Assembly: GCF_006716745.1 (NCBI RefSeq)
Contig: NZ_VFPP01000001.1
Coordinates: forward strand, 7,203,386 to 7,267,385
Direction: 5' to 3'
Origin: Saccharothrix saharensis
GTDB taxonomy: Bacteria; Actinomycetota; Actinomycetes; Mycobacteriales; Pseudonocardiaceae
DNA: 64,000 bases
Part shown: piece after piece, positions 14,738-26,968 of the stretch
Position numbering within the stretch: the first letter of the stretch is position 1
Layout: each line of letters begins with the position of its first letter
Program-made: the position numbers and the translations under genes
The notes under the pieces: generated by a model
The model's database searches: none
What the model was told of the DNA's origin: nothing
The model's input: only the letters and a program-made list of their open reading frames with translations

Positions 14738-15286
14738 ATGGACCGGAACGAGGAGCCTGGGACGTCGGACGAGACGTTCGCCGCCCTGCTCAACGGGTTC
14801 AGCCTCGACTCCTCCCGCCGTCGCAAGCAGGAGAAGCCGAGGGCCGAGCAACCCGCCGCCCCGACCGGCGACAGCCGGGACACGGGGGACACCAGGCCCC
14901 ACCGCCCCGTCTTCGACGACGACGAGGACGACTTCGAGTACCCGCGCGAGGAGGCGGCGTCGATCGTCCGCGCCTACTCGTGGACCGGCGGCCGCACGAC
15001 CTCGTCGTTCCAGCTCGAGATCGAGACGCTGGTGTCGGCGGTGGACTGGGACTACCCGGGCGCGATGAAGTCCGAGTACCACGAGGTGATCAACCTCGTG
15101 GCCCGGCCGCGGTCGGTGGCGGAGATCGCCGCGCTGCTGCGCCTGCCGCTGGGCGTGGCCAAGGTGCTGCTGGGCGACATGGCCGAACGCGGCCTGATCG
15201 ACGTCCACGACACCGCGTCCACCGACGGCGCCCAGCCGGACCTGGGCCTGATGGAACGCGTCCTCGCCGGCCTCCGCCGCCTCTGA
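14738..15286 (+). CDS. cvnC: DUF742 conservon protein CvnC
   Basis: 182 residues. An acidic, unstructured N-terminus is followed by the DUF742 domain (about 75-182), a winged-helix-like fold: IVRAYSWTGGRTTSS, EYHEVINLVARPRSVAEIAA, LRLPLGVAKVLLGDMAERGL. I prefer ATG 14738 (GAGGTGG 3-5 bases upstream) over GTG 14732. The domain normally ends just before cvnD, but no cvnD GTPase gene follows; a repeat cluster and a GbsR-type regulator come next. The operon is therefore an incomplete conservon. Confidence 0.88.
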   Translation: MDRNEEPGTSDETFAALLNGFSLDSSRRRKQEKPRAEQPAAPTGDSRDTGDTRPHRPVFDDDEDDFEYPREEAASIVRAYSWTGGRTTSSFQLEIETLVSAVDWDYPGAMKSEYHEVINLVARPRSVAEIAALLRLPLGVAKVLLGDMAERGLIDVHDTASTDGAQPDLGLMERVLAGLRRL

Positions 15287-15295
15287 CCCCCGCGC

Positions 15296-15380
15296 GAGTC
15301 GAACCCCCAGGTCCCGAGTGTCGAACACTCAGGTCCCGAGAGTCCTACGTTCGGAACACCCGAATTCAACGCTCAGGACC
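15296..15380. repeat. 3'-end repeat cluster A (four units)
   Basis: Begins 9 bases after the cvnC stop. Four head-to-tail units of 20-23 bases: 15296-15315 and 15316-15337 (type GAGTGTCGAACNNTCAGGTC), 15338-15360 (GAGAGTCCTACGTTCGGAAC) and 15361-15380 (CGAATTCAACGCTCAGGACC). All are variants of one theme, GAGTGTCGAACGTTCAGGAC. Same family as clusters at 21381-21517 and 25243-25384. Confidence 0.85.
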
Positions 15381-15416
15381 GGCGCGCCGCCTTTGCGTGA
15401 TGATCAGCACACGACC

Positions 15417-15422
15417 TATCGT
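15417..15422 (+). promoter_or_regulatory. -10 box TATCGT before the GbsR-type regulator
   Basis: TATCGT ends 7 bases before an in-frame GTG at 15430, which could be a leaderless start; alternatively it drives a short leader to the ribosome-site-led ATG at 15469. Confidence 0.4.
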
Positions 15423-15468
15423 GGTTTCAGTGCCGACCGAAGTGTCGGCGTGGAGCCGAGGGGGTCTG

Positions 15469-15933
15469 ATGAGCGTCGGACGGGAAACGCGGCTGTCGGC
15501 GTGGATCGAGCGGTTCGCCGCGCACTTCGCCGAGGAGGGCATCCCGCTGATCGGCGGCCGCATCCTCGGCTACCTGCTGGTGTGCCAGCCCACGGAACGG
15601 ACCGCCGCCGAGCTGTCCCAGGAGCTGGAGGCCAGCAGCGGCTCGATCAGCACGAACCTGAAGTTCCTGGTCAACGCCGGTCTGGTGACCAAGCGCACGC
15701 GGCGCGGCCGGCAAGCGGCGCAGTACCGGATCAACGAGAAGCGGTGGGTCGACCTGATCCAGCGCAAGCTCGACGCCCTGGTGAGCGTGCGCGAGCTGAC
15801 CGAGGCCGGGATGCGGCTGATGAGCGGCGACCCCGAACGCGCCATGCGGCTGCGGACCGTGGACGACCTCTACACGTGGCTGGCGACCGAACTGCCCGCG
15901 GTCTGGGACCGCAGGCCCTCGTCGTCACGCTGA
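15469..15933 (+). CDS. GbsR/MarR-type winged-helix regulator
   Basis: 154 residues. Winged helix at about 25-95: PLIGGRILGYLLVCQPTERT, AAELSQELEASSGSISTNLK (recognition helix SSGSISTNLKFLVNAGLV), then a basic wing KRTRRGRQAAQYRI and a C-terminal dimerisation helix. Members bind DNA as dimers and often control osmolyte or transporter genes. ATG 15469 has GAGGGGG upstream; a leaderless GTG at 15430 would add 13 residues. Its 3' end overlaps the convergent ctaA coding region by 64 bases. Target genes unknown. Confidence 0.82.
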   Translation: MSVGRETRLSAWIERFAAHFAEEGIPLIGGRILGYLLVCQPTERTAAELSQELEASSGSISTNLKFLVNAGLVTKRTRRGRQAAQYRINEKRWVDLIQRKLDALVSVRELTEAGMRLMSGDPERAMRLRTVDDLYTWLATELPAVWDRRPSSSR

Positions 15934-16829
15934 CCCCCGGCGCGTTCACGGGTGGACACCCACAGGGCGGCGGTGGCGACGACCACCGCGCCCGCACCCA
16001 GCACGTGCAGCGAGACCAGCACCTCGGGCACGCCGGTCCAGTACTGGACCATGCCCAGTGCGCCCTGCGCCAGCACCACGCCCACCAGCGCGTAGTACGG
16101 CCGCCGCGGCACGGGGTGGCCGCGCAACGCGAAGCCGAGCGCGATGAGCATGCCGAGGAACAGGAACAGCAGGTCGGCGTGCAGCTGCGACAACGTGTCC
16201 ACCGGCAGGTCCAGGCGCGGGGTGGCCGCGTCACCGGCGTGCGGCCCGGCGGCGGTCACGAACGTCCCCGCCAGCAGCAGCAACCCCAGCGTCACGGCCT
16301 GCACGACCTGCAGCTTCAGCAATCCCCGCGGCACGAGCGGCCGGGCGGGCCCGTCACCCTCGCCCAGCGCCGCGACCAGCAGCACGGCGAACCAGACCAG
16401 CAGCATCGACACCAGGAAGTGCACGCTCACCGTCCACCACAGCAGCCCGGTGAGCACGGTGAACCCGCCGATCACGGCCTGCGCCACGACCCCGCCGAAC
16501 TGCACCAGCGCCAGCACCACGACCCGCTTGCGCCGCGGCCGGTTGAACCACGCCGCCAGCACGCACAGCGCCGCGATCACGCCGACCACACCGGTCAGCG
16601 TGCGGTTGCCGAACTCGACCCACTGGTGCAGCGACGCCACCTCGGGGTGCTCGACCGGCACGAGGCTGCCCTCGAAGCACTGCGGCCAGGTGGGGCAGCC
16701 GAGTCCCGACCCGGTCACCCGCACGATCGACCCGGTCACCGCGATGCCGCCCTGGGCGATCACGACGGCGATGGCGAACGCACGCTGGAACGTGCTCAGG
16801 AAGGCGGTGAACCAGGATGGAACGGACAC
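15870..16829 (-). CDS. ctaA: heme A synthase (COX15/CtaA family)
   Basis: 319 residues with about eight membrane helices. Hallmarks: GSIVRVTGSGLGCPTWPQCF (with the loop cysteine pair region), EVASLHQWVEFGNRTLTG (heme-ligating His), SVHFLVSMLLVW and LSQLHADLLFLFLG. The enzyme turns heme O into heme A, acting after CtaB. The GTG at 16829 is chosen because TACCAT at 16836-16841 lies 6 bases upstream, a leaderless arrangement. The C-terminal tail runs 64 bases into the convergent regulator gene. Together with the ABC genes upstream it recalls the mycobacterial Rv1456c-Rv1458c group. Confidence 0.9.
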   Translation of the reverse strand: MSVPSWFTAFLSTFQRAFAIAVVIAQGGIAVTGSIVRVTGSGLGCPTWPQCFEGSLVPVEHPEVASLHQWVEFGNRTLTGVVGVIAALCVLAAWFNRPRRKRVVVLALVQFGGVVAQAVIGGFTVLTGLLWWTVSVHFLVSMLLVWFAVLLVAALGEGDGPARPLVPRGLLKLQVVQAVTLGLLLLAGTFVTAAGPHAGDAATPRLDLPVDTLSQLHADLLFLFLGMLIALGFALRGHPVPRRPYYALVGVVLAQGALGMVQYWTGVPEVLVSLHVLGAGAVVVATAALWVSTRERAGGQRDDEGLRSQTAGSSVASHV

Positions 16830-16835
16830 GACCCG

Positions 16836-16841
16836 ATGGTA
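16836..16841 (-). promoter_or_regulatory. -10 box TACCAT for leaderless ctaA
   Basis: TANNNT element 6 bases upstream of GTG 16829 on the minus strand, between the ABC permease stop (16874) and ctaA. Confidence 0.5.
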
Positions 16842-16873
16842 GGTACCACTAGCTGAGAACCGCTGCCCGGGGG

Positions 16874-17662
16874 TCAGCTGAGCTTGGTGGTCCGCATCGC
16901 CGTCACGCCCGCGGCCACGCCCCAGACGACCAGCACGGCGACGTGACCGGGGCTCGGCGCGGCCCCCTCGACCACGGCGTCGTGCAGGGCGAGCGCGAGC
17001 GCGGCGGACGGCAGCGCGTCCACGACGGTCGCCAGCCACCCCGGCAGCGCGTCCACGCCGAGCGCGACGCCGCCGACGAGCAGCAGCGCGAACCACACGA
17101 TGTTGGCCAGTGCGAGCACGATCTCCGCCCGCAGCGCGCCGCCGAGCAGCACGCCGAGCGCGCCGAACGACAACGTGCCGAGCAGGATCAGCAGAGCCGC
17201 CCACAGCAGACCGGTAGCGGACGGTAGCCGCCAGCCGAGCAGCAGCGCGACCACGGCGATGATGACGACCTGCACGGCGACCACGGCCAGCGCCGCGACG
17301 ACCCGTCCGGCGACGAGCAGCCAGCGGGGGAGCGCGGTCGCGGCGAGGCGCTTGAGCACGCCGTAACGCCGGTCGAAGCCGAGCGCAATCGCTTGCCCGG
17401 TGAACGCGGACGAGATCACGGCCAGCGCGAGGATGCGGGCGGTGGCCGAGCCGACCCGCGGGTCGGGCACCGGGATGACGTCCATCAGGCTCATCGCGAC
17501 CAGCAGCGCCACCGGGATGAGCACGGTCAGCAGGATCTGCTCGCCGTTGCGCAGCGTGAGCACGGTCTCGGTGCGGGCCTGGGCGAGCAGCATCCGGCCG
17601 AGCTTGCCGCGGCCGGGCGCTGGCGTGAACGTGCCGGGCGCGAACGAGGGTGAGTCGGTCAC
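16874..17662 (-). CDS. ABC-2-type transporter permease
   Basis: 262 residues with six membrane helices; cytoplasmic N-terminus LLAQARTETVLTLRNGEQ, then helix pairs with ARILALAVISSAFTGQAIAL, FDRRYGVLKRLAATALPRWL and a C-terminal AVLVVWGVAAG. This is the ABC-2/DrrB-like permease type that exports drugs, lipids or polymers. The GTG start overlaps the ATPase stop (GTGA at 17662-17659), so the two are coupled. Its substrate is unknown; the neighbouring ctaA may point to heme-related export but this is only context. Confidence 0.88.
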   Translation of the reverse strand: MTDSPSFAPGTFTPAPGRGKLGRMLLAQARTETVLTLRNGEQILLTVLIPVALLVAMSLMDVIPVPDPRVGSATARILALAVISSAFTGQAIALGFDRRYGVLKRLAATALPRWLLVAGRVVAALAVVAVQVVIIAVVALLLGWRLPSATGLLWAALLILLGTLSFGALGVLLGGALRAEIVLALANIVWFALLLVGGVALGVDALPGWLATVVDALPSAALALALHDAVVEGAAPSPGHVAVLVVWGVAAGVTAMRTTKLS

Positions 17663-18597
17663 GAGCGCAGCTCCCTGCCGGTCAGCTCCAGGAACACGTC
17701 CTCCAGGCTGCGCCTGGCCACGGTCAGCTCCTCGGCCAGCACGCCCTGCTGGGCGCACCACGAGGTGACCGTGGAGAGGACCTGCGGGTCGATGTGGCCC
17801 TGCACGAGGTAGGTGCCGCGAGTCGCCTCGCGCACCTCCAGACCCTCCGGCAGGGCGTCGCGCAGCAACGTCAGGTCCAGGCCGGGCCGGGCGCGGAAGC
17901 GCAGCTGCCGGTCGTCGGCGTGGTGCTCGGTGAGCTCGGCCGGGCTGCCCTGGGCGACGACGCGGCCCGCGTCCACGATGACGACGTGGTCGGCGAGCGC
18001 TTCGGCCTCGTCCATGAGGTGGGTGGTGAGCAGCACGCTGACGCCGTCCGCGCGCAGTGCCGACACCAGTTCCCAGACCAGGCGGCGGGCCTGGGGGTCC
18101 ATGCCGGCGGTCGGCTCGTCCAGGAACACCAGCTCGGGCCGCCCGACGAGGGCGCACGCCAGGGACAGGCGTTGCTGCTGCCCGCCGGACAGCCGCTTGT
18201 AGGGGGTGCGCACCGCCGACGAGAGCCCGAGCACGTCCAGCAGCCACCGGGGGTCGAGGGGGTTCGCGGCGCACGCGGCCACCAGGCGCAGCATCTCGTC
18301 GGCCCGCACGCCGGGGTAACCGCCGCCGCCCTGCGGCATCACGCCGATGCGGGGGCGCAGCCGGTCGCCGTCGCGCCGGGGGTCGAGCCCGAGGACGCGG
18401 ACCTCGCCGCCGTCGGCCGCCCGGAACCCCTCGCAGACTTCGACGGTGGTCGTCTTCCCGGCGCCGTTGGGGCCGAGGAGCGCGAGGACCGTGCCGGTGT
18501 CCAGGGTGAGGTCGAGTCCGTTCACCGCGACGGTGGAGCCGTAGCGCTTGACCAGCCCCGACACTTCCACGGCAGGGTGCTGGGGGTGCGGGCTCAC
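17659..18597 (-). CDS. ABC transporter ATP-binding protein (DrrA/CcmA type)
   Basis: 312 residues. Walker A GPNGAGKTTT (about 42-51), Q-loop GVMPQGGGGYPGV, signature LSGGQQQRLSLA, Walker B ELVFLDEPTAGMD, H-loop LLTTHLMDEAEAL; a C-terminal extension of about 90 residues (DRQLRFRARPGLDL...) is typical of DrrA-like ATPases. Partners the permease at 16874-17662. GTG 18597 is supported by a TAGGCT box 8 bases upstream (18606-18611). Likely forms an exporter in the inner membrane. Confidence 0.92.
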   Translation of the reverse strand: MSPHPQHPAVEVSGLVKRYGSTVAVNGLDLTLDTGTVLALLGPNGAGKTTTVEVCEGFRAADGGEVRVLGLDPRRDGDRLRPRIGVMPQGGGGYPGVRADEMLRLVAACAANPLDPRWLLDVLGLSSAVRTPYKRLSGGQQQRLSLACALVGRPELVFLDEPTAGMDPQARRLVWELVSALRADGVSVLLTTHLMDEAEALADHVVIVDAGRVVAQGSPAELTEHHADDRQLRFRARPGLDLTLLRDALPEGLEVREATRGTYLVQGHIDPQVLSTVTSWCAQQGVLAEELTVARRSLEDVFLELTGRELRS

Positions 18598-18605
18598 GAC
18601 GGGGA

Positions 18606-18611
18606 AGCCTA
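18606..18611 (-). promoter_or_regulatory. -10 box TAGGCT for leaderless ABC ATPase
   Basis: TANNNT element 8 bases upstream of GTG 18597 on the minus strand. Confidence 0.45.
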
Positions 18612-18734
18612 GGGCGTGGCCTGCCCCACCCCGGTGGTGGGGTCAGCCCCACCGGGGTTCTCCGGGTGGCTTCAGGGTCGTCTCGGGGGTGTTCCCGATA
18701 TCTTCGGTCGCCATTCCGGACGAAGATTTTCCTC

Positions 18735-19361
18735 GTGGTGGAGATCCGGGGGAAAACGCGGACGGCGGTGGTGCCGCTGGCTGTCGTGGGGCTCGTCCTG
18801 TCGCTGTTCCCGATTGTTTACCTGCATGTGTCGTCGGTCGGCGAACTGAGCCCGATCGCGCACACGATCAGCGATTACATCTTCGTGGACAACGGCAGCG
18901 GCCTGCTCGCCGCGACCGCGCTGACGCTGGCGGCGGCGTCGATCGGCCTGCTCGTCGCCCTGGTCCGGTCGGGTCTGCCCAGACGGGGGCCGGTGGCAGT
19001 GCTGCTGGGGCTGTGGGCGGCGGGGTTGGCGGTGGCCGCGGTGTTCCCGACCGACCCGACCGGCACGCCCACGTCGTTCTCCGGCGCGGTGCACCGGTAC
19101 GCGGGCGCGGTGATGTTCGCGAGCCTGCCGCTGGCCGGGTGGCTGATTTCCCGGACGTTCATCTCCAGTACCGCCCTGCGTCGTATTTCCGTAGCCGCGG
19201 GCATCACCTCGGTGGCATTCATGGTCAGTCACGTCTCGGTGGTGTACCCGGGTAACGGCGCGGTCGTGCTCGGCCTTTTCGAGCGCGTTCTGTTCGCCTT
19301 GTTGTACGGGCTGCTGTTCGCCCTGGCCTCCGCCGTCCTGCGCCGCGAGGAGGCGTCATGA
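18735..19361 (+). CDS. DUF998 family membrane protein
   Basis: About 208 residues with six membrane helices. The first loop has SPIAHTISDYIF, the conserved motif of DUF998 proteins; VFPTDPTGTPTSFSGAVHRY is the second conserved block. Function unknown; the family is common in membranes of actinobacteria. Start uncertain: tandem GTGs at 18735 and 18738 precede the first helix and no clear ribosome site is seen; in-frame starts reach back to 18666. The stop overlaps the next start (ATGA at 19358-19361), so it is coupled to the transporter-glycosyltransferase gene and may work with it. Confidence 0.75.
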   Translation: MVEIRGKTRTAVVPLAVVGLVLSLFPIVYLHVSSVGELSPIAHTISDYIFVDNGSGLLAATALTLAAASIGLLVALVRSGLPRRGPVAVLLGLWAAGLAVAAVFPTDPTGTPTSFSGAVHRYAGAVMFASLPLAGWLISRTFISSTALRRISVAAGITSVAFMVSHVSVVYPGNGAVVLGLFERVLFALLYGLLFALASAVLRREEAS

Positions 19362-21382
19362 CGTGGCTCGCCGTCCTGCTCGCGGTGCTCGGCGCCGTGT
19401 TCTTCGCCTTCGCCGCACGCCTGCAGCACGACGCCGTGCGGGCGAGCGAGGGCGCGTTGAAGGTCCTGGAGCTGCTGCGCAGGCCGCGGTGGCTGCTGGG
19501 CCTGGTGTTGCTCGTCCTCGGCGCCGGTGTGCACGCGGCGGCGTTGGGGATGGCGCCGTTGAGCGTGGTGCAACCGGTCGGCGTGGTGGCCATCGGCATC
19601 ACCGCGGTCCTCGACGGTCGCCGCCGTGAGCTGCCCGCGGTCGCGTGGACCACGTTCGGCGTGGGCGCGTTCGTGCTCCTGGCCGCGGGCAGCGCCACGT
19701 CCACCGCGGTCGTGCCGGAGGCCGAGGTGAAGGCCGCGCTGCTGGCGCTCGGCCTGATCGCGGTCCCGGGCCTGGTCGGCGTGCTGTCGACCCGCCCGGC
19801 GGTGCGCGCCCTCGGTTTCGGCGCGGCGGGCGGTGTCGCCTACGGCTTCGTGTCCGTGCTCATGCGGTCGGTGTCGCAGGACGTCCAGCAGGGCGGCCTG
19901 GCGTGGTCGACCGCGCTCTCGGCGGCGGGCATCGCCGCCGCCCTCGTCGTCGGCGGCTGGTTCACCCAGCACGCCTACGCCAGCGGACCGCCGCACCTGG
20001 CGGTCGCCTGCCTCACCGTGGTGGACCCGCTCGTGGCCGTCGGCATCGGCGCGGGGCTGCTCGGCGAGGCGACCCGGACCAGCCCGCTGGTGGCCGCCGC
20101 CCAGGTGGCGTGCGCCGCGATCGCCGTCGGCGGTGTCGTCGCGCTGGCCCGCACCCGAACTCTTCCCGCAGTACCCACCAGATCGGAGACGACAGTGACC
20201 AACGGACGCGCCATGCGGATCGTGATCGCCGCGGAGACGTTCCCGCCGGACGTCAACGGCGCGGCCCGGTTCGCCCACCGCCTCGCCACCGGGCTCGCCG
20301 GCCGCGGCCACGACGTGCACGTGATCTGCGTGTCGCCGGACGGCGCGGCCCGCACCGAGCGGGCCGATGGGATCACCGTGCACCGGGTGCGGTCGCACCG
20401 CACGCCGTTCCACCGCACGTTCCGGGTCGGGCTGCCGTGGCAGGTGCGCAAGGACGTCGCCGTGCTGCTGGAGGAGCTGCGGCCGGACCTGGTGCACGTG
20501 CAGGCGCACTTCGTCGTGGGGCGGCACGTGCTGCGGCAGGCGGCGGCGTCGGGCATCCCGACCGTGGCGACGAACCACTTCATGCCGGAGAACCTGTTCG
20601 GGCACGCGCACGTGCCGGCGTGGTTGCAGGGCATGGCGTCGCGGTGGGCGTGGCGGGACCTGGGGCGGGTGTTCGGCGTGGCCGACGTGGTGACCGCGCC
20701 GACGCCGCGGGCCGTGCGGCTGCTGCACGACAACGGTTTCCCGGAGCGGGCCGTGCCGGTGTCGTGCGGCATCGACATCGACCGGTACCGGTCGCGGCGC
20801 CCCGTGCGGCGCACCGACGCGCCGACCGTGCTGTTCGTGGGGCGGTTGGACGAGGAGAAGCGGGTGGACGAGCTGCTGCGCGCCCTCGCGCTCGTGCCGC
20901 GGCTGCACGCCGAGATCGTGGGCGACGGCTCGTGCCGGGCGGAGTGGGAGCTGCTGGCGCGTGACCTCGGCATCACCGACCGCGTCCGCTTCCGCGGTTT
21001 CGTGAGCGAGTCCGAGCTGCTGGACGCCTACGCGTCGGCGGACGTGTTCTGCATGCCGGGCATCGCCGAGCTGCAGAGCCTGGCCACGATGGAGGCGATG
21101 GCCGCGGGCAAGCCGGTGGTGGTGGCGGACGCGATGGCGTTGCCGCACCTGTGCAAGCCGGGACGCAACGGCTGGCTGTTCACGCCGGGCGACGTGCGCG
21201 GCCTGGCGGACCGCCTGCACGCCGTGACCGTCGACCCGACCGTCACCGTCCGCATGGGTGCCGCGTCCAGCGACCTGATCGCCGCCCACGCCATCGACAC
21301 CACCCTGGAGACCTTCGAATCCCTCTACTCCCGCGCCCTGGGCCTGCCCACCCCGACCCTCACCCCCGCCCTGGCCGCGTGA
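19358..21382 (+). CDS. DMT-type transporter fused to GT4 glycosyltransferase
   Basis: 674 residues. Residues 1-265 form nine to ten membrane helices of the drug/metabolite or EamA-like type (ALGMAPLSVVQPVGVVAIGI; SGPPHLAVACLTVVDPLVAV). After a short linker, residues about 286-674 are a GT-B glycosyltransferase of family 4: AAETFPPDVNGAARFAHRLA, DLVHVQAHFVVGRHVL, VGRLDEEKRVDELLRAL, and the E-x7-E motif in GIAELQSLATMEAMAAGKP. The GT part is similar to mannosyltransferases such as PimB/MgtA-like enzymes. An internal GTG at 20195 has GGAG 6-8 bases upstream and could make the GT alone. A transporter fused to a cytoplasmic glycosyltransferase suggests lipid-linked sugar handling. Confidence 0.85.
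   Translation: MTWLAVLLAVLGAVFFAFAARLQHDAVRASEGALKVLELLRRPRWLLGLVLLVLGAGVHAAALGMAPLSVVQPVGVVAIGITAVLDGRRRELPAVAWTTFGVGAFVLLAAGSATSTAVVPEAEVKAALLALGLIAVPGLVGVLSTRPAVRALGFGAAGGVAYGFVSVLMRSVSQDVQQGGLAWSTALSAAGIAAALVVGGWFTQHAYASGPPHLAVACLTVVDPLVAVGIGAGLLGEATRTSPLVAAAQVACAAIAVGGVVALARTRTLPAVPTRSETTVTNGRAMRIVIAAETFPPDVNGAARFAHRLATGLAGRGHDVHVICVSPDGAARTERADGITVHRVRSHRTPFHRTFRVGLPWQVRKDVAVLLEELRPDLVHVQAHFVVGRHVLRQAAASGIPTVATNHFMPENLFGHAHVPAWLQGMASRWAWRDLGRVFGVADVVTAPTPRAVRLLHDNGFPERAVPVSCGIDIDRYRSRRPVRRTDAPTVLFVGRLDEEKRVDELLRALALVPRLHAEIVGDGSCRAEWELLARDLGITDRVRFRGFVSESELLDAYASADVFCMPGIAELQSLATMEAMAAGKPVVVADAMALPHLCKPGRNGWLFTPGDVRGLADRLHAVTVDPTVTVRMGAASSDLIAAHAIDTTLETFESLYSRALGLPTPTLTPALAA
20195..21382 (+). 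CDS. possible internal start: free-standing GT4 glycosyltransferase
   Basis: In frame within the fusion gene. GTG 20195 (VTNGRAMRIVIAAETFPP) is preceded by CGGAGAC at 20184-20190, and ATG 20213 starts the glycosyltransferase fold itself. If used, a 395-residue cytosolic enzyme is made next to the fusion protein. This is how two formerly separate, adjacent genes would look after the stop codon between them was lost. Confidence 0.4.
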   Translation: MTNGRAMRIVIAAETFPPDVNGAARFAHRLATGLAGRGHDVHVICVSPDGAARTERADGITVHRVRSHRTPFHRTFRVGLPWQVRKDVAVLLEELRPDLVHVQAHFVVGRHVLRQAAASGIPTVATNHFMPENLFGHAHVPAWLQGMASRWAWRDLGRVFGVADVVTAPTPRAVRLLHDNGFPERAVPVSCGIDIDRYRSRRPVRRTDAPTVLFVGRLDEEKRVDELLRALALVPRLHAEIVGDGSCRAEWELLARDLGITDRVRFRGFVSESELLDAYASADVFCMPGIAELQSLATMEAMAAGKPVVVADAMALPHLCKPGRNGWLFTPGDVRGLADRLHAVTVDPTVTVRMGAASSDLIAAHAIDTTLETFESLYSRALGLPTPTLTPALAA

Positions 21383-21517
21383 GTCGAACCTCCAGGTCCC
21401 GAGTGTCGAACGTTCAGGACCACCGAATTCAACGTTCAGGACACCACCGCCGGGTCCTGAACGTAGAACTCGGGGGTCCCGAGCGTTCGACACTCGGGTC
21501 CCGAGCGTTCGACACTC
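21381..21517. repeat. 3'-end repeat cluster B (six units, inverted arrangement)
   Basis: Starts inside the stop codon of the transporter-glycosyltransferase gene (TGA at 21380-21382) and ends 3 bases from the stop of the convergent patatin gene (21521). Plus-oriented units: 21381-21400, 21401-21424, 21425-21445. Minus-oriented units: 21452-21471, 21475-21495, 21496-21517, the last two being the exact tandem GGTCCCGAGCGTTCGACACTC (21 bases, shown here split: GGTCCCGAGCG and TTCGACACTC). The two halves are nearly complementary and would fold into one long hairpin, so the cluster may act as a two-way terminator. Confidence 0.88.
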
Positions 21518-21520
21518 GGG

Positions 21521-24500
21521 TTAGTCGAGGTCGGAGCCGGTGGTGGAGCGGTGGGCGGCGCGGTGCGCGACGCGGTGGCCGGTGGTGGTCAGGCGGGGGC
21601 GGCCGGAGTCGTCCAGGTCGGTGAGGAACTTGAACAGCATCCCGTGGCCCTCCAGCCGCTTCAGCAGCACGGCGGCCACGTCGTCGGGGTCGAAGTCCAG
21701 GATGGACAGCTGCTCCACCAACGACGTCGCGATGGTCCGCCGAGCCCGCAACGGCACCCACCACGTCGTCACCAGCAGCAGCACCAGCCCGAACGCCAAC
21801 GCCGTGCCCAGCACCGCCTCCCACCCGGTGAACCGCAACGAGAACACCTGCACCACCGCGGCGATGACCAACAGCGCGGACCCGTACACCGCGGCCCACC
21901 CGGCGGTCGCGGACGCGGGCGGCTCGGCGGCCTCCGTGTCCCACACCCCGTCCACCTGCCGCCACCGCCGCAGCGAGCTGCCCAGGACGTACGACGTCAC
22001 CCCGCCGAACACGATCGCGACGACCGTCCCGATCACCACCGGCGCCGGGCTCAGGTCGTACAGCCGGTACCGCACCACGGCCCACACACCGGCCACGATC
22101 GCCGCCGCCACCAGCACCCGCACCAGCAGCCGCGGCTTCAACCGCACCTTCCCCAGCACGGCCAGCGGCGTGCCCACCGGCGCGGGCAGGCTGCCGATGA
22201 CCAGCAACCCCACCACGACCAGCAGCACGCCGCCGACCGCCACCATGCCCGTCACGGCCTGGTCGCCGGTCTGCCCGGACGCCAACGCGTCCCGGGTCCG
22301 GTCGATCGCCACCGTCACCAGCGGGATCACCGGCGACAGCAGCACCAGCCCGTGCAGCAGCGTGCCCGACCGCAGCGCCGCGTAGCCGAACGCGGCCAGC
22401 AGCGTGCCGCCGCCGAACGCCGCCGCCGGACCGACCGCCCACGGCGGCAGCAGGTCGAACAGCGACAGCACCAGCAGCGCCCCGCCCAACGCGAACCCGA
22501 GCAACCCCAGGAACTGCGCCAGCCGCCCACCCCTGGTCAGCCCGGTGATCGTCCAGTACGGCAGCAGCGCCGCCCCGCGCAACGTCCTGGTCAGCGGTTT
22601 CGCCGTGCCCAGCCCGGAGTTGTCGCTGTCGGCCACGGTGATCGCCACCGCCGCGGCCGTCGCCGCCGTGCGGATCACCTGGTCGCTGCTCGCCTCCTGC
22701 ACCAGCGGCTCACGCCCGATGCCCGCCCGGTCGAACGCGCTCAGCCCCCGCACGCCCACCTCGACCCGTTCCGCGTCCGTCCGCACGGGCAGCCGGGACA
22801 GCAGTGCCGCCTGCTCCTCCAGGAACAGCTCGCCGCGCGAACGCCGGTCCGCGCCCTCGTGCCGGTCGGCCAGGATCGCCGCGCGCAACGCGGGCAGCTC
22901 CTCGCAGATGATCCGGGTGTGCAGGCCCCACGCGGCCAGCTCGGCCAGCGCCGCGCACGTCGGCGGGTGGTCGCCGTCGGGGTTCGCGTAGACCGCGCCC
23001 AGCTCGTCCTTCGCCCGCCGCACGTACGGCACCAGCTCGTCCGGCACGCCGTCGCCGAACAACGCCAGCACCAGCTCGTCGACCTTCGCCGCGGCCCGGG
23101 CGACCGGGTCGCCGCCACCGCCGGTGAGCCGGTCCACCCGCAGCAACCGCTTCGGGTCGAACACCACCTTGCACAGCATGGTCGCGCCGTCGAGCCTGCC
23201 CCAGATCCAGTCGTTGACCCGCCAGGACCGCTTGAGGAACCCGGAGAACCGGTTCAGCGACGCCCCACCGGCCTTGTCCTCGGCGGTGACGCTGTACTCG
23301 GCGAACGCGTTGCGCGTCTGCAGGCTGATCTGCACCAGCTCCACGGCTTGGTCCAAGCCGCCGCGGGTGTCGTCGGCCAGGCACGTCGTGGCGACCTCCA
23401 GGGCCAGCGCCCGGGACAGCAGCAGGTCGCCCGCCACCAGCCCCGCCCCGGCCTCGGCGTCGGTGCGCGGCTCGGTCAGCAGCCGGTGCCACGACCGCAG
23501 CTCGCCGACCCGCAACTGCTCGTCGTCCAGCCGGTCGAGGATGTCGTGCGCGTCACCGAGGACGCCCGCGATCCGGTCCACCTGCTCCCGCACCCGCCGG
23601 CCGACGCCGTCCGGCTCGTCCAGCATCTTCGCCGCGAACCGGCGGACCCGCCGTTCCCAGTACTCCTGGTCCAGCTCCTCCGCGCGGCCGGTGGTCCAGT
23701 GCTCGTCCAGCTCGACCCGGGCGGCGCGCAGCTTCGCCCGCACGTCGAACAGGTTCGTGCGCGCCATCGCGAGCCGCTGGGCGTCCGGCATCACCCACAC
23801 CAGGCGTTTGAGCACTTCCATCGCGGCGGACGCGAGCCGTTCGGCCATCGTGATGCCCCACGGCCAGCCGTGGTCGGGCAGCGCGGCCGGCTGCGGCACG
23901 GTCGGCACGTACGGCAGCTTGCCGTGCTGCGCGCGGTACTCGCGCTGGGCGGCTTCGGCGGCCGCGCGGACCCGTTCGAACGTCCAGCCGGCGGTGTTGG
24001 CGCCCGGCACCTCGAACTGGCGGGTCGTGACGTCGCGGGCGGCGTGCCGGATGCGCACGTCCTCGTAGTGGTCGTGCAGGGTCTCCGCCAGCGCGTACAG
24101 CTTCTCCGTGACCGAGCCGCCCGACGCCAGCCGGTCCAGCAGGGCGTTGCGCCCGCCGCGGCGTGAGGCGGCGTTGCGGTTGTGCTCCTCGATGCGGTCG
24201 ACGTAGGTGCGGCCGCTCTGGCTGGTCAACGCGCCGAGCAGCTTGCCGCCGGTGGCCATGGTGCTGGGCAGCGCGCCGTCCACCGGGGCCACCGGCTCCA
24301 CGACCGCCTCGGGGGCGTGCGGGAACACCAGCAGCATCACCCGCCGCACGGGGCCTTCGGCGGGCATCCGGTCGATGGCCTCCAACGCCTCCTTGGTGGG
24401 CGTGTTGACCAGGACGCCGCCGTCGACGGCGTAGCGGGACCGGTTGTCGGTGTCGTTGGCCCAGGAGGCGACGTCGGCCATGTTCGGCTTGTCGCCGTCG

Positions 24501-25168
24501 GGCGCGCCGGGTGCGACCGGGATGAACGACGGCTCGAACGCGAACGGGAAGGACGCGGACGAGCGGGCGGCCAGCGCCAACCGGCTGACCAGCGTCGGGA
24601 GGCGTTCGGCGGCGAAGTCGTCCCGGCCGTCGGGGTCGCGGCGGAACGAGAAGCTGCCCTGGTGGGTGGCCTGCACGAGGGTCTGGCCGAGGTCGTCGTG
24701 GTGGACCGTGGGCACGCCCGCGAGCAGCGTCGTGGTGATGCGCAGGTCGACCGGTCGGTCCTCCTGCGGGGTGAAGTCGGTGGTCAGGCGTTCGAGGGCT
24801 TCCTGGAGCCGGGGCAGGAAGAACTCGTCACCGCGCAGCAGCGACACGGGTTGGCCGCGGAACGGCGTGCGCAGCAGCTGTTCCATGCGCCCCTGCTCGG
24901 CCCACAGGTCGCGCAGCCGTTCCAGCCGGGCGTTCGCGTTGACCTGGGACAACGCCAGCGCGGCCCCGTTGATGCCGCCGGCCGACGTGCCCGTGATGAC
25001 GTCGGCGCGGGCCGTGCTGCCGACCATGTCCAGCAGGTCCGCGTACGGGCCGTCACCCCTGGTCAGCCGGTCGAGCTCGAGCACCACACCGCCCATCCAC
25101 ACGGCGAGGCTGACCCCGCCGTTGAGCACGACGGCGAACCGGATCTGCTCCCTGGGCACGTCCACCAT
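21521..25168 (-). CDS. patatin-like phospholipase with large C-terminal membrane domain
   Basis: 1215 residues. N-terminal patatin domain (1-270): oxyanion segment VVLNGGVSLAVWMGG, nucleophile elbow GTSAGG (Ser62) and catalytic Asp in AVDGGVLVNTP (D249), so the Ser-Asp dyad is intact. A long helical middle (300-800) follows, then about ten membrane helices (about 850-1120) and a His/Arg-rich tail. It resembles the actinobacterial patatin-DUF3376 proteins, which hydrolyse acyl esters of phospholipids or related lipids. ATG 25168 with GGAGGAGGG upstream is chosen over an upstream in-frame start. The 3' end abuts repeat cluster B and cluster C lies just upstream of its start. The fusion to a membrane domain suggests lipid remodelling in the inner membrane. 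Confidence 0.87.
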   Translation of the reverse strand: MVDVPREQIRFAVVLNGGVSLAVWMGGVVLELDRLTRGDGPYADLLDMVGSTARADVITGTSAGGINGAALALSQVNANARLERLRDLWAEQGRMEQLLRTPFRGQPVSLLRGDEFFLPRLQEALERLTTDFTPQEDRPVDLRITTTLLAGVPTVHHDDLGQTLVQATHQGSFSFRRDPDGRDDFAAERLPTLVSRLALAARSSASFPFAFEPSFIPVAPGAPDGDKPNMADVASWANDTDNRSRYAVDGGVLVNTPTKEALEAIDRMPAEGPVRRVMLLVFPHAPEAVVEPVAPVDGALPSTMATGGKLLGALTSQSGRTYVDRIEEHNRNAASRRGGRNALLDRLASGGSVTEKLYALAETLHDHYEDVRIRHAARDVTTRQFEVPGANTAGWTFERVRAAAEAAQREYRAQHGKLPYVPTVPQPAALPDHGWPWGITMAERLASAAMEVLKRLVWVMPDAQRLAMARTNLFDVRAKLRAARVELDEHWTTGRAEELDQEYWERRVRRFAAKMLDEPDGVGRRVREQVDRIAGVLGDAHDILDRLDDEQLRVGELRSWHRLLTEPRTDAEAGAGLVAGDLLLSRALALEVATTCLADDTRGGLDQAVELVQISLQTRNAFAEYSVTAEDKAGGASLNRFSGFLKRSWRVNDWIWGRLDGATMLCKVVFDPKRLLRVDRLTGGGGDPVARAAAKVDELVLALFGDGVPDELVPYVRRAKDELGAVYANPDGDHPPTCAALAELAAWGLHTRIICEELPALRAAILADRHEGADRRSRGELFLEEQAALLSRLPVRTDAERVEVGVRGLSAFDRAGIGREPLVQEASSDQVIRTAATAAAVAITVADSDNSGLGTAKPLTRTLRGAALLPYWTITGLTRGGRLAQFLGLLGFALGGALLVLSLFDLLPPWAVGPAAAFGGGTLLAAFGYAALRSGTLLHGLVLLSPVIPLVTVAIDRTRDALASGQTGDQAVTGMVAVGGVLLVVVGLLVIGSLPAPVGTPLAVLGKVRLKPRLLVRVLVAAAIVAGVWAVVRYRLYDLSPAPVVIGTVVAIVFGGVTSYVLGSSLRRWRQVDGVWDTEAAEPPASATAGWAAVYGSALLVIAAVVQVFSLRFTGWEAVLGTALAFGLVLLLVTTWWVPLRARRTIATSLVEQLSILDFDPDDVAAVLLKRLEGHGMLFKFLTDLDDSGRPRLTTTGHRVAHRAAHRSTTGSDLD

Positions 25169-25242
25169 CACACCCTCCTCCCCGCGGCCCCGATCCTCCC
25201 GCACCCCCTACCTCGCCCACCGCCGCCTCCCGGTTACACCCG

Positions 25243-25384
25243 CGAGAGTCGAACGTCCAGGTCCCGCGTGTCGAACCTCCAGGACCCCCGAGTTCTGCGT
25301 TCGCGTTCGGCCAGGCGGCCGCGAGCGTTGAATTCGCAGGTCCTGAGCGTTCGACACGCGGGACCTGGAGGTTCGACTCTCGGG
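25243..25384. repeat. 3'-end repeat cluster C (six units, 46-bp inverted repeat)
   Basis: Units 25244-25265 and 25266-25287 (plus), a degenerate unit 25288-25312, and minus-oriented units at 25323-25342, about 25340-25367 and about 25361-25384. The left arm (25243-25287) and the right arm (25340-25384) are inverted copies with only about four mismatches, enclosing a spacer of about 52 bases. It ends one base before the mptB stop codon (25385-25387) and lies 75 bases upstream of the patatin start. Same unit family as clusters A and B. Confidence 0.88.
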
Positions 25385-26968
25385 TCAGGCGGAGCCGGGG
25401 AGGGGGTCGCGTCTGATCAGGGGGATGACCTGCTTGCGGGCGACGAAGAGGCACACGCCGAACGCGATCAGGGCGGCCGTCACGGCCTGCGGCACGATGT
25501 AGGCGCGCCCGTCGAACGCCGATCCCGTCGGCGGCAGGATGACCGCGATCACGGCGCTCGCGGTGGTGGCGAAGACCCGGAAGCGACGCGCCAGCACGGC
25601 CGTGGCCAGCGGCAACGCGGCCCACAGCACGTACCACGGCTGCAGCACGGGCCCGAGCACCAGCACCGCGCCCAAGCCCGCCCCCAGGCCGTTCATGGCC
25701 TTGATCCGGCCCCGGAACGCCTTCCACAGCAGCGTCGCCACGATCACCACCGACACGGCCTGCGTCACGATCCGCATCAGCACGATCACCGACTCGGTGT
25801 GGTTGCCCAGCCCGAGCAGCAGCCCCAGCCCGCCGCCCATGAACCCCATCGCGGTCGGCGGGGACATCCAGCTCTTCACCGTGCCGGCGACGTTCAGCGT
25901 CTCCACCCAGCCGAACCCCAGCCCGGTGCCCACGCACGTCCCGACCATCACCACACCCGAGATGACCAGCAACAACAGCGCCGCCCGCACCAGGTCGGAG
26001 AACCGGCCGCCCCACCGCCGCGCGATCATCACGCCGAGGAACCCGAGCGCCAGCGCGGCCGGGATCTTCACCGCCGCGCCCATCGTGATCATGGTCGCCC
26101 CGAGCACGATCCACAGCAGCTCTTCACGCGTCGTCGGCGCACCGGGCGTCACCGGCATCTTCCGCAACGCCAGTTCCAGCCCGACCAGCATCAGGCCGAT
26201 CGCCAAGCCCTCGTTGTGCACGCCCACGACCAGGTGGAACAGCACCAGCGGGTTCGCCGCGCCCAGCCACAGCGCGCTCACCGGCGGCACGCCGAACCGC
26301 CGCGCCAGCCGCGGCAGCGCCCACACGATCATCGCCAGGCCCAGCAGCCCCAGCAGCCGGTGCAGGAAGATGCCCGGCAGCACGCTGTCGCCGGTCACCA
26401 TGGAGATGACCCGCCCGGCGGCCAGGAACAGCGGCCCGTACGGCGCGGGCGTCTCGCGCCAGATGTTCGGCACGTTCTTGGTCAGGTCGTGCTCCACGCC
26501 CAGCGCCGTGGCCGGGCCGAGCTCGTACGGGTCCTGCCCGTTGGCCGCGATCTGCGACTGCGCCAGGTAGCTGTAGACGTCACGGCTGAACATCGGCAGC
26601 ACGAACACCAGCGGCGTGATCCACATCAGCAGCGTGCGGTCGAGCTGGCTGCGCGTCACCAGCCGGGGTCGGCCCGGCCGGGCGAACCGGCCCAGCCACA
26701 GCCACGCCGACACGATGAGGAACATGCCGGTCCACACCGCGCCCATGGACGCGCTGGGCATCCGCACGAACAGCCCCAGCAGCGGCGTCCCCGGCAACGG
26801 GCTGAACACGGGCGCGGCCCCGGACCCGAGGGAACCGACCGCCATCAGCAGCGCGCCGACGGTGCCCCAGCGGCGGATCACGTCGAGCTGCCGCCGTTCG
26901 GGGGCGTCGAGGGGTGCTGCCTCGCCGATCCCGCTCCGGTTCGCCATCACCATTCCGCCCGCCGCCAC
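25385..26968 (-). CDS. mptB: alpha-1,6-mannosyltransferase MptB (GT-C)
   Basis: 527 residues with about 13 membrane helices. GT-C signature in the first large loop: PMFSRDVYSYLAQSQIAANG (Asp of SRDVYSY as the catalytic acid), then YELGPATALGVEHDLTKNVP, WRETPAPYGPLFLAAGR and HNEGLAIGLMLVGLEL. Such enzymes use polyprenyl-phosphate mannose to build the alpha-1,6 mannan backbone of lipoglycans. The GTG at 26968 is chosen because TACCCT (26975-26980) lies 6 bases upstream; ATG 26953 or 26947 are alternatives. As in mycobacteria (Rv1459c), it is divergent from sufR. Confidence 0.9.
   Translation of the reverse strand: MAAGGMVMANRSGIGEAAPLDAPERRQLDVIRRWGTVGALLMAVGSLGSGAAPVFSPLPGTPLLGLFVRMPSASMGAVWTGMFLIVSAWLWLGRFARPGRPRLVTRSQLDRTLLMWITPLVFVLPMFSRDVYSYLAQSQIAANGQDPYELGPATALGVEHDLTKNVPNIWRETPAPYGPLFLAAGRVISMVTGDSVLPGIFLHRLLGLLGLAMIVWALPRLARRFGVPPVSALWLGAANPLVLFHLVVGVHNEGLAIGLMLVGLELALRKMPVTPGAPTTREELLWIVLGATMITMGAAVKIPAALALGFLGVMIARRWGGRFSDLVRAALLLLVISGVVMVGTCVGTGLGFGWVETLNVAGTVKSWMSPPTAMGFMGGGLGLLLGLGNHTESVIVLMRIVTQAVSVVIVATLLWKAFRGRIKAMNGLGAGLGAVLVLGPVLQPWYVLWAALPLATAVLARRFRVFATTASAVIAVILPPTGSAFDGRAYIVPQAVTAALIAFGVCLFVARKQVIPLIRRDPLPGSA

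Follow-up and report, generated by a model that had tools for sequence, protein, structure and literature searches.

A New REP/BIME-Like Repeat Family in Saccharothrix

A 64,000-nucleotide stretch of the Saccharothrix saharensis genome (the window; contig NZ_VFPP01000001.1) carries three clusters of a 22-bp repeat unit. These clusters belong to a new family that resembles the repetitive extragenic palindromic (REP) sequences and bacterial interspersed mosaic elements (BIMEs), has an unusual architecture and lacks several REP hallmarks. Our preferred reading, to which we give a probability of about 0.5, is that the family consists of polar arrays, usually of at least two standard units (S) and one cap unit (E), which lie in gaps at gene 3′ ends, alone or as inverted pairs, and which act there as hairpin barriers. 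Its unusual traits are a strict 22-bp head-to-tail pitch, a single cap, sequence dialects at conserved sites and the absence of a Y1 transposase from the S. saharensis genome. With this family the REP/BIME world gains an actinobacterial branch whose best-studied genome has no transposase of the usual kind, yet its units are renewed at fixed sites.

Unit Sequence, Copy Number and Array Grammar

The S unit has the 22-bp consensus ccGAGTGTCGAACGYTCAGGAC, and its profile contains a 15-bp pseudo-palindrome, GAGNGT-CSW-ACNCTC. The cap unit E, also of 22 bp, reads ccccGARTTCWACGYTCAGGAC. When up to 3 mismatches were allowed, the S pattern gave 269 matches in the 8.92-Mb genome and the reversed pattern gave 0. 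The window and 40 stretches of ~20 kb around listed matches were then taken as a sample of 860,037 bases. Densities in this sample are not genome averages, because the stretches were picked for holding units; gene context played no part in the picking. Position-weight scans detected 63 clusters with 380 units in the sample, and 3 single cap-like clusters were dropped from the context counts.

Same-strand neighbours were spaced at 22 bp in 264 of 267 cases in the sample and in 552 of 560 cases in 136 elements from other records, among the matches listed. Half-elements are built of S units followed by one terminal cap. This grammar fits 54 of the 60 multi-unit clusters in the sample, and the set order of unit forms proposed in an earlier note on this DNA was correct to that extent. 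In the six deviating clusters the cap is missing or doubled, or a lone reversed unit is present; in one cluster that does fit, a half contains just one S. Two halves may be joined tail-to-tail (SSEess) or head-to-head (essSSE), and 34 of 40 head-to-head junctions have a 2-bp spacer. The most frequent types in the sample were SSEess (10 clusters), essSSE (9) and ess (7). At one orthologous site (L080 9931-10167, L033, L240 and L219), half-elements flank a G+C-rich hairpin that is kept in 4/4 loci.

In the window, 16 units lie on the 22-bp grid, all but one of them detected by the sequence scan. Cluster A (15294-15379; 4 units) is a single half on the plus strand. Its first S unit (15294-15313) is weak and starts 7 bases past the stop of a DUF742 (cvnC-type) gene; S units with core triplets CGA (15316-15335) and CCT (15338-15357), the latter being the dialect common in relatives, and a cap (15360-15379) follow. 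Cluster B (21379-21517; 6 units) is an inverted repeat. The plus-strand arm comprises an S unit at 21379-21398, which was missed by the 5-mismatch scan and holds the TGA stop of a glycosyltransferase gene (21380-21382), a second S unit (21401-21420) and a cap (21423-21442). Beyond an inner spacer of 11 bases (21443-21453), the minus-strand arm runs through a cap (21454-21473), an S unit (21476-21495) and an outer S unit (21498-21517), and three bases (21518-21520) separate the outer unit from the stop codon of a patatin-like gene (21521-25204). Cluster C (25244-25381; 6 units), also an inverted repeat, has plus-strand S units at 25244-25263 and 25266-25285, a cap at 25288-25307, an inner spacer of 10 bases (25308-25317), and a minus-strand cap (25318-25337), S unit (25340-25359) and outer S unit (25362-25381). 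The outer unit ends 3 bases ahead of an open reading frame at 25385-26968.

The three clusters, their 16 units and the inverted-repeat build of B and C are thus present as the earlier note had described, with edges shifted by 2-3 bases. It had put each cluster at a stop codon; each does lie behind a gene, and the distances are corrected to 7 bases for A and 3 bases for C. It had also seen no units outside the clusters. All S matches with up to 5 mismatches fell inside them, and five order-2 Markov control windows gave 1 S match in total, at 5 mismatches. The short E/T forms had 14 weak matches (4-5 mismatches) outside, which were taken as background; the control windows averaged 7.4 each. The genome count and the Markov controls rule out a chance origin of the units.

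Placement Relative to Genes

The context of the 60 multi-unit clusters was called with our own gene finder. There were 35 clusters in convergent gaps, 23 in tandem gaps, 1 in a divergent gap and 1 at an edge, and these calls were stable over four thresholds bar one tandem case. Cluster A was scored as convergent and is in fact tandem, since the gene finder missed a plus-strand gene (15469-15933) owing to its overlap with a neighbour; counts of 34 convergent and 24 tandem are nearer, and similar errors are possible. The missed gene encodes a small helix-turn-helix (ArsR/MarR-like) protein, lies downstream of a Roadblock/DUF742 pair and overlaps the convergent gene 15870-16829 by 64 bases. As occupancy in the sample, the original calls correspond to 35/148 convergent, 23/495 tandem and 1/134 divergent gaps (convergent versus divergent, p about 6e-10). 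A divergent case, at 4211378, was examined for a candidate regulator and showed nothing convincing. The 136 elements of the other records gave 71 convergent, 46 tandem and 4 divergent cases, 1 inside a gene and 14 at a locus edge.

In the sample and the other records together, 131 of the 174 S edges that face a stop codon lay 2-9 bases from the stop or overlapped it by 4. Element-free convergent gaps are themselves tiny (median 15 bp), and the leftover DNA around elements was not shorter than these gaps (Mann-Whitney p = 0.28, three leftovers below -30 having been dropped beforehand). The closeness to the stop therefore needs no special targeting, and exact targeting of stop codons was discarded as unnecessary. 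The earlier note had called the units placed exactly at gene 3′ ends: the link to 3′ ends holds in the sample and in other species, while the exactness comes mostly from the small size of convergent gaps. Half-elements in tandem gaps had S adjoining the stop in 20 cases and the opposite orientation in 10, a difference that is not significant (p = 0.10).

Along the contig, 63 of 66 grouped unit places lie at 2.2-7.8 Mb (among the matches listed; two more lie outside), and dnaA is at 4.85 Mb. The units thus favour the origin-proximal part, which rules out a replication-terminus signal.

Shared Sites, Dialects and Turnover

As judged by eye, 10 of 25 Saccharothrix genomes carry an element at site B and 9 of 25 at site C, and both sites have occupied and empty alleles in the genus. 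Among the matches listed, 63 of the 136 elements from other records had a flank in the S. saharensis sample and 46 had both flanks collinear. For 38 of these 46, S. saharensis carries an element at the same site (30 distinct sites), a figure to be read against a sample enriched in elements, with a base rate of 35/148 convergent gaps. The pair type, compared by eye, was kept in 32 of the 38 shared-site pairs, clearly differed in 3 and was extended or partial in 3.

The core triplet of the S unit varies among species, with CGA, CCT, CCA and CGT all seen. In S. saharensis, 258 of 276 S units carry CGA. Strain S26 has CCT (55/61), ALI-22-I has CCA (41/54) and B-16314 has CCT (30/32), while carnea, luteola and B-16348 contain a mixture. 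In this tally no strain was assigned to 40 of the 120 loci. In genome G155, the element at site B has CCT and the element at site C has CGA, each being uniform. In some species, therefore, the dialect spans nearly the whole genome, and in others it extends over single elements. Among the CCT units found in capped halves of S. saharensis, 12 of 14 adjoin the cap (p = 0.0003), which suggests renewal of arrays from the outer end.

Unit numbers change fast. The flanks of genomes G127 and G154 are mostly 97-99% identical (lowest 88%), and the number of called units differs in 13 of 16 comparable orthologous arrays; inspection by eye showed that at least one of these differences, in the second L354 pair, arises from the calling. 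These arrays come from 17 pairs drawn up, one of which was not extractable. All 16 are occupied in both genomes, a biased rate because both samples were picked around elements. Arrays may gain and lose units locally through 22-bp slippage and template switching between arms, and occasional copying between loci would spread a dialect. The dialects and this close pair are natural experiments, and the family makes it testable what keeps dispersed short repeats alike within one genome and whether they have any 3′-end role.

At empty site C, 10 bp (G110) or about 11 bp (G127) lie between a conserved TTACAC and the stop, and by eye both are short inverted repeats. No target duplication was seen by eye between occupied and empty genomes at this site. 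Three further observations at these sites were made by eye. Near the element-free site C of G150 (L392), a separate long-armed hairpin lies just ahead of the mptB-type stop, with a sequence unlike the units. At site B of G166 (L130), a 15-bp perfect hairpin occupies the convergent gap in place of a repeat element. At site B of G152 (L119), an unrelated sequence directly follows the stop and may be an insertion.

Hairpin Formation and Predicted Function

The RNA of cluster B folded at -101.8 kcal/mol (z -11) and the minus-strand RNA of cluster C at -114.8 (z -13). A transcribed inverted pair would form a very stable hairpin, which could halt or protect transcripts arriving from either side, mainly where genes converge. 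Such a two-sided barrier at 3′ ends is the most likely function predicted from these folds and from the placement, and we hold it less firmly than the joint reading with a REP-like family. In G127 and G154, similarity between mirrored units exceeded that to units of the same role in other elements (0.819 vs 0.749 and 0.806 vs 0.765; 0/2000 permutations each).

Several results weigh against a hairpin function. Cluster A folds weakly (z -2.6), and half-elements are unable to form a long hairpin. In S. saharensis, mirrored S units resembled each other no more than they did units of the same role in other elements (0.835 vs 0.838). The excess in the mixed-species set (0.803 vs 0.740; pooled permutation 0/2000) is not decisive because species dialect confounds it. 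Mirrored units did not share the core triplet more often than non-mirrored units of the same element, either in G127 (34/51 vs 74/102) or in G154 (36/53 vs 95/131). In tandem contexts, transcript-sense G.U mismatches (96) were not preferred over A.C mismatches (92). In S. saharensis, selection on the RNA is thus backed neither by wobble bias nor by compensation at single loci; in G127/G154 the picture for compensation is mixed. Intrinsic terminators consist of a G+C-rich hairpin and a T run behind it. The B and C hairpins are very stable, but clusters A, B and C yielded no flagged terminator-like site carrying such a run. Moreover, site B in one element-free genome (L128) is a 3-bp gap, indicating that a hairpin is not needed there. 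An Rfam search of window positions 15000-25600 gave 3 matches, all under the gathering score.

Spacers Between Caps

The 101 distinct cap-to-cap spacers fall into classes, with 5 at 0-1, 67 at 9-12, 17 at 19-22, 7 at 30-32, 2 at 43-44, 2 at 65-66 and 1 at 94. None lies at 13-18, 24-29 or 35-41, and the best period is about 11.1-11.2. The G127/G154 group was left out of this count, the caps there being fused: in most elements of its loci L341, L343, L346-L351, L355, L357-L361, L363-L365, L367 and L373 they are joined into a conserved palindrome, 35-36 bp long, around TTCACTCGCGAGTGAA, in contrast to the variable spacers of other groups.

Together with the rigid 22-bp pitch and with core dialects that are near-uniform in several genomes, this quantisation is consistent with units that are duplex-DNA sites for a putative dimeric protein. 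Each S pseudo-palindrome would be a dimer site, the array would space the dimers at 22 bp, and the paired arms would act as a roadblock or as a topological insulator where polymerases converge. Helical phasing was favoured at first from the spacer lengths and was then weakened by two results. Long spacers keep in-register similarity to the unit (mean scores -35.0, -30.6 and -18.1, versus about -40 for shuffled sequence), so decayed 22-bp units account for part of the quantisation. Off-class distances also occur, namely cap distances of 14 and 18 (and of 13, 17 and 18 with a drifted E profile) in the G127/G154 group and, tail-to-tail, of 15 and 16 in a second genus. The head-to-head spacer of that genus is 7 instead of 2. 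No candidate protein turned up, though no systematic search for one was made. We consider a protein of this kind unlikely; if there were one, the dialect at core positions 8-9 would reflect shifts in its specificity.

It is likewise doubtful that the arrays form a genome-wide code at gene ends read by a putative protein or copying enzyme. In it, cap-closed rows of 22-bp sites would follow an 11-bp lattice, and the core dialect would switch at numerous conserved positions with no Y1 transposase involved. If true, such a code would be a new bacterial way to homogenise dispersed repeats and to insulate converging genes.

Relation to Known Repeat Systems

The REP/BIME comparison drawn in the earlier note is apt. 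Like REPs, BIMEs and REPINs, which include GTAG- and CGTC-tagged superfamilies and are linked to RAYT/TnpA-REP, the units are short, palindromic, high in copy number, extragenic, close to stop codons and often in inverted pairs. A REP is a short palindromic unit with >100 copies per genome, in agreement with the 269 matches and the 15-bp pseudo-palindrome found here, and the extragenic position, mainly in convergent and tandem gaps, also corresponds. REPs are reported to occupy gaps between convergent and between tandem genes near 3′ ends, at <20 bp in convergent gaps (PMC3733652), a REP can supply the stop codon, and inverted pairs are often able to fold as hairpins (PMC3733652, PMC3116915). 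Compensatory changes and length-constrained spacers are described for REPINs in PMC3116915.

Three structural differences were found. REPs are usually head-to-head or tail-to-tail dimers and rarely head-to-tail, whereas the Saccharothrix arms are head-to-tail arrays. Arrays here usually end in one cap unit. The unit profiles have no fixed GTAG or CGTC end tag; GTAG is confined to an internal position on the reverse strand, in the CCT dialect and in some caps. The earlier note had also advised looking for a REP-associated tyrosine transposase (RAYT). The Y1 transposase family of the RAYT/REP type (PF01797) gave 0 hits in S. saharensis at E 0.001. It is present in 5 of 25 genus genomes, at 7 places, and scans with own-dialect and mixed profiles found no array within about 1.5 kb of these genes, only two lone weak cap-like matches. 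A RAYT-driven REP was therefore rejected. CGTC REPs are said to be without RAYT too (PMC3733652).

Neisseria DNA uptake sequences (DUS) have species dialects and inverted pairs at terminators (PMC3630211). A self-DNA uptake signal of this type would account for the per-species dialects and the inverted pairs at gene ends in Saccharothrix. It is very improbable, given the strict tandem 22-bp arrays, the caps and the near-absence from genes, all unlike DUS in the passages of PMC3630211, in which neither 22-bp arrays nor a cap appear. Under the terms searched, neither the Saccharothrix espanaensis genome paper (PMC3469384) nor that of Actinosynnema mirum (PMC3035213) yielded a passage on such repeats. 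No prior description of these repeats was found in the open literature searched, most subscription papers being outside that scope. BOX elements of Streptococcus pneumoniae are modular, intergenic and foldable, with sub-units in a set order; their sequence and unit plan are not known to be related to those of the Saccharothrix units.

Distribution Among Genomes

Searches of the whole genome and of related Pseudonocardiales, as the earlier note had proposed, show that the family extends far beyond the three clusters, to other Saccharothrix and to a second genus. A dialect-bound pattern gave at least one match in 16 of 25 Saccharothrix genomes (two of them one match only) and at least 10 matches in 14. 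It undercounted G127 and G154, where a wider pattern gave 272 and 342 matches versus 2 and 4 for the control. It also missed the element-bearing genomes G031 and G148 of the second genus, which neutral patterns caught, so zero counts from that search are weak. A dialect-neutral pair pattern was present in 3 of 397 genomes of the order (S. saharensis, one congener and G031), that is in 2 of 85 genera. Among the matches listed, those with names were Saccharothrix species and a metagenome-assembled genome labelled Actinophytocola; a match in a Rubrobacteraceae metagenome-assembled genome had no cluster of at least two units. Viral contigs gave 0 matches to one exact two-unit pattern, and a viral origin was set aside on that pattern. 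In the second genus, elements were found in 2 of 6 genomes.

This patchy presence (14/25, 2/6 and 2/85 in the counts above) is what would be expected of purely selfish or neutral repeats, spread by some enzyme, tolerated solely at positions where they disrupt neither promoters nor coding frames, and without host function. The occupied and empty alleles at sites B and C, the leftover DNA that is no shorter than free gaps, and a placement matching published REPs (PMC3733652) point the same way. On the other hand, the 38 of 46 listed elements that share sites between species have their architecture intact, which neutral decay would not keep without active homogenisation. In addition, S. saharensis has no PF01797 gene, no array lies near the genus copies, and the one exact pattern was unmatched in viral contigs. 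We regard neutral repeats as unlikely and prefer a REP/BIME-like family with a barrier function.

The arrays of the second genus keep the 22-bp grid, with a 2-bp spacer in 84 of 85 same-strand cases, and a recognisable cap is almost absent from them. Their contexts were 15 convergent, 13 tandem, 3 inside genes and 1 edge (n = 32).
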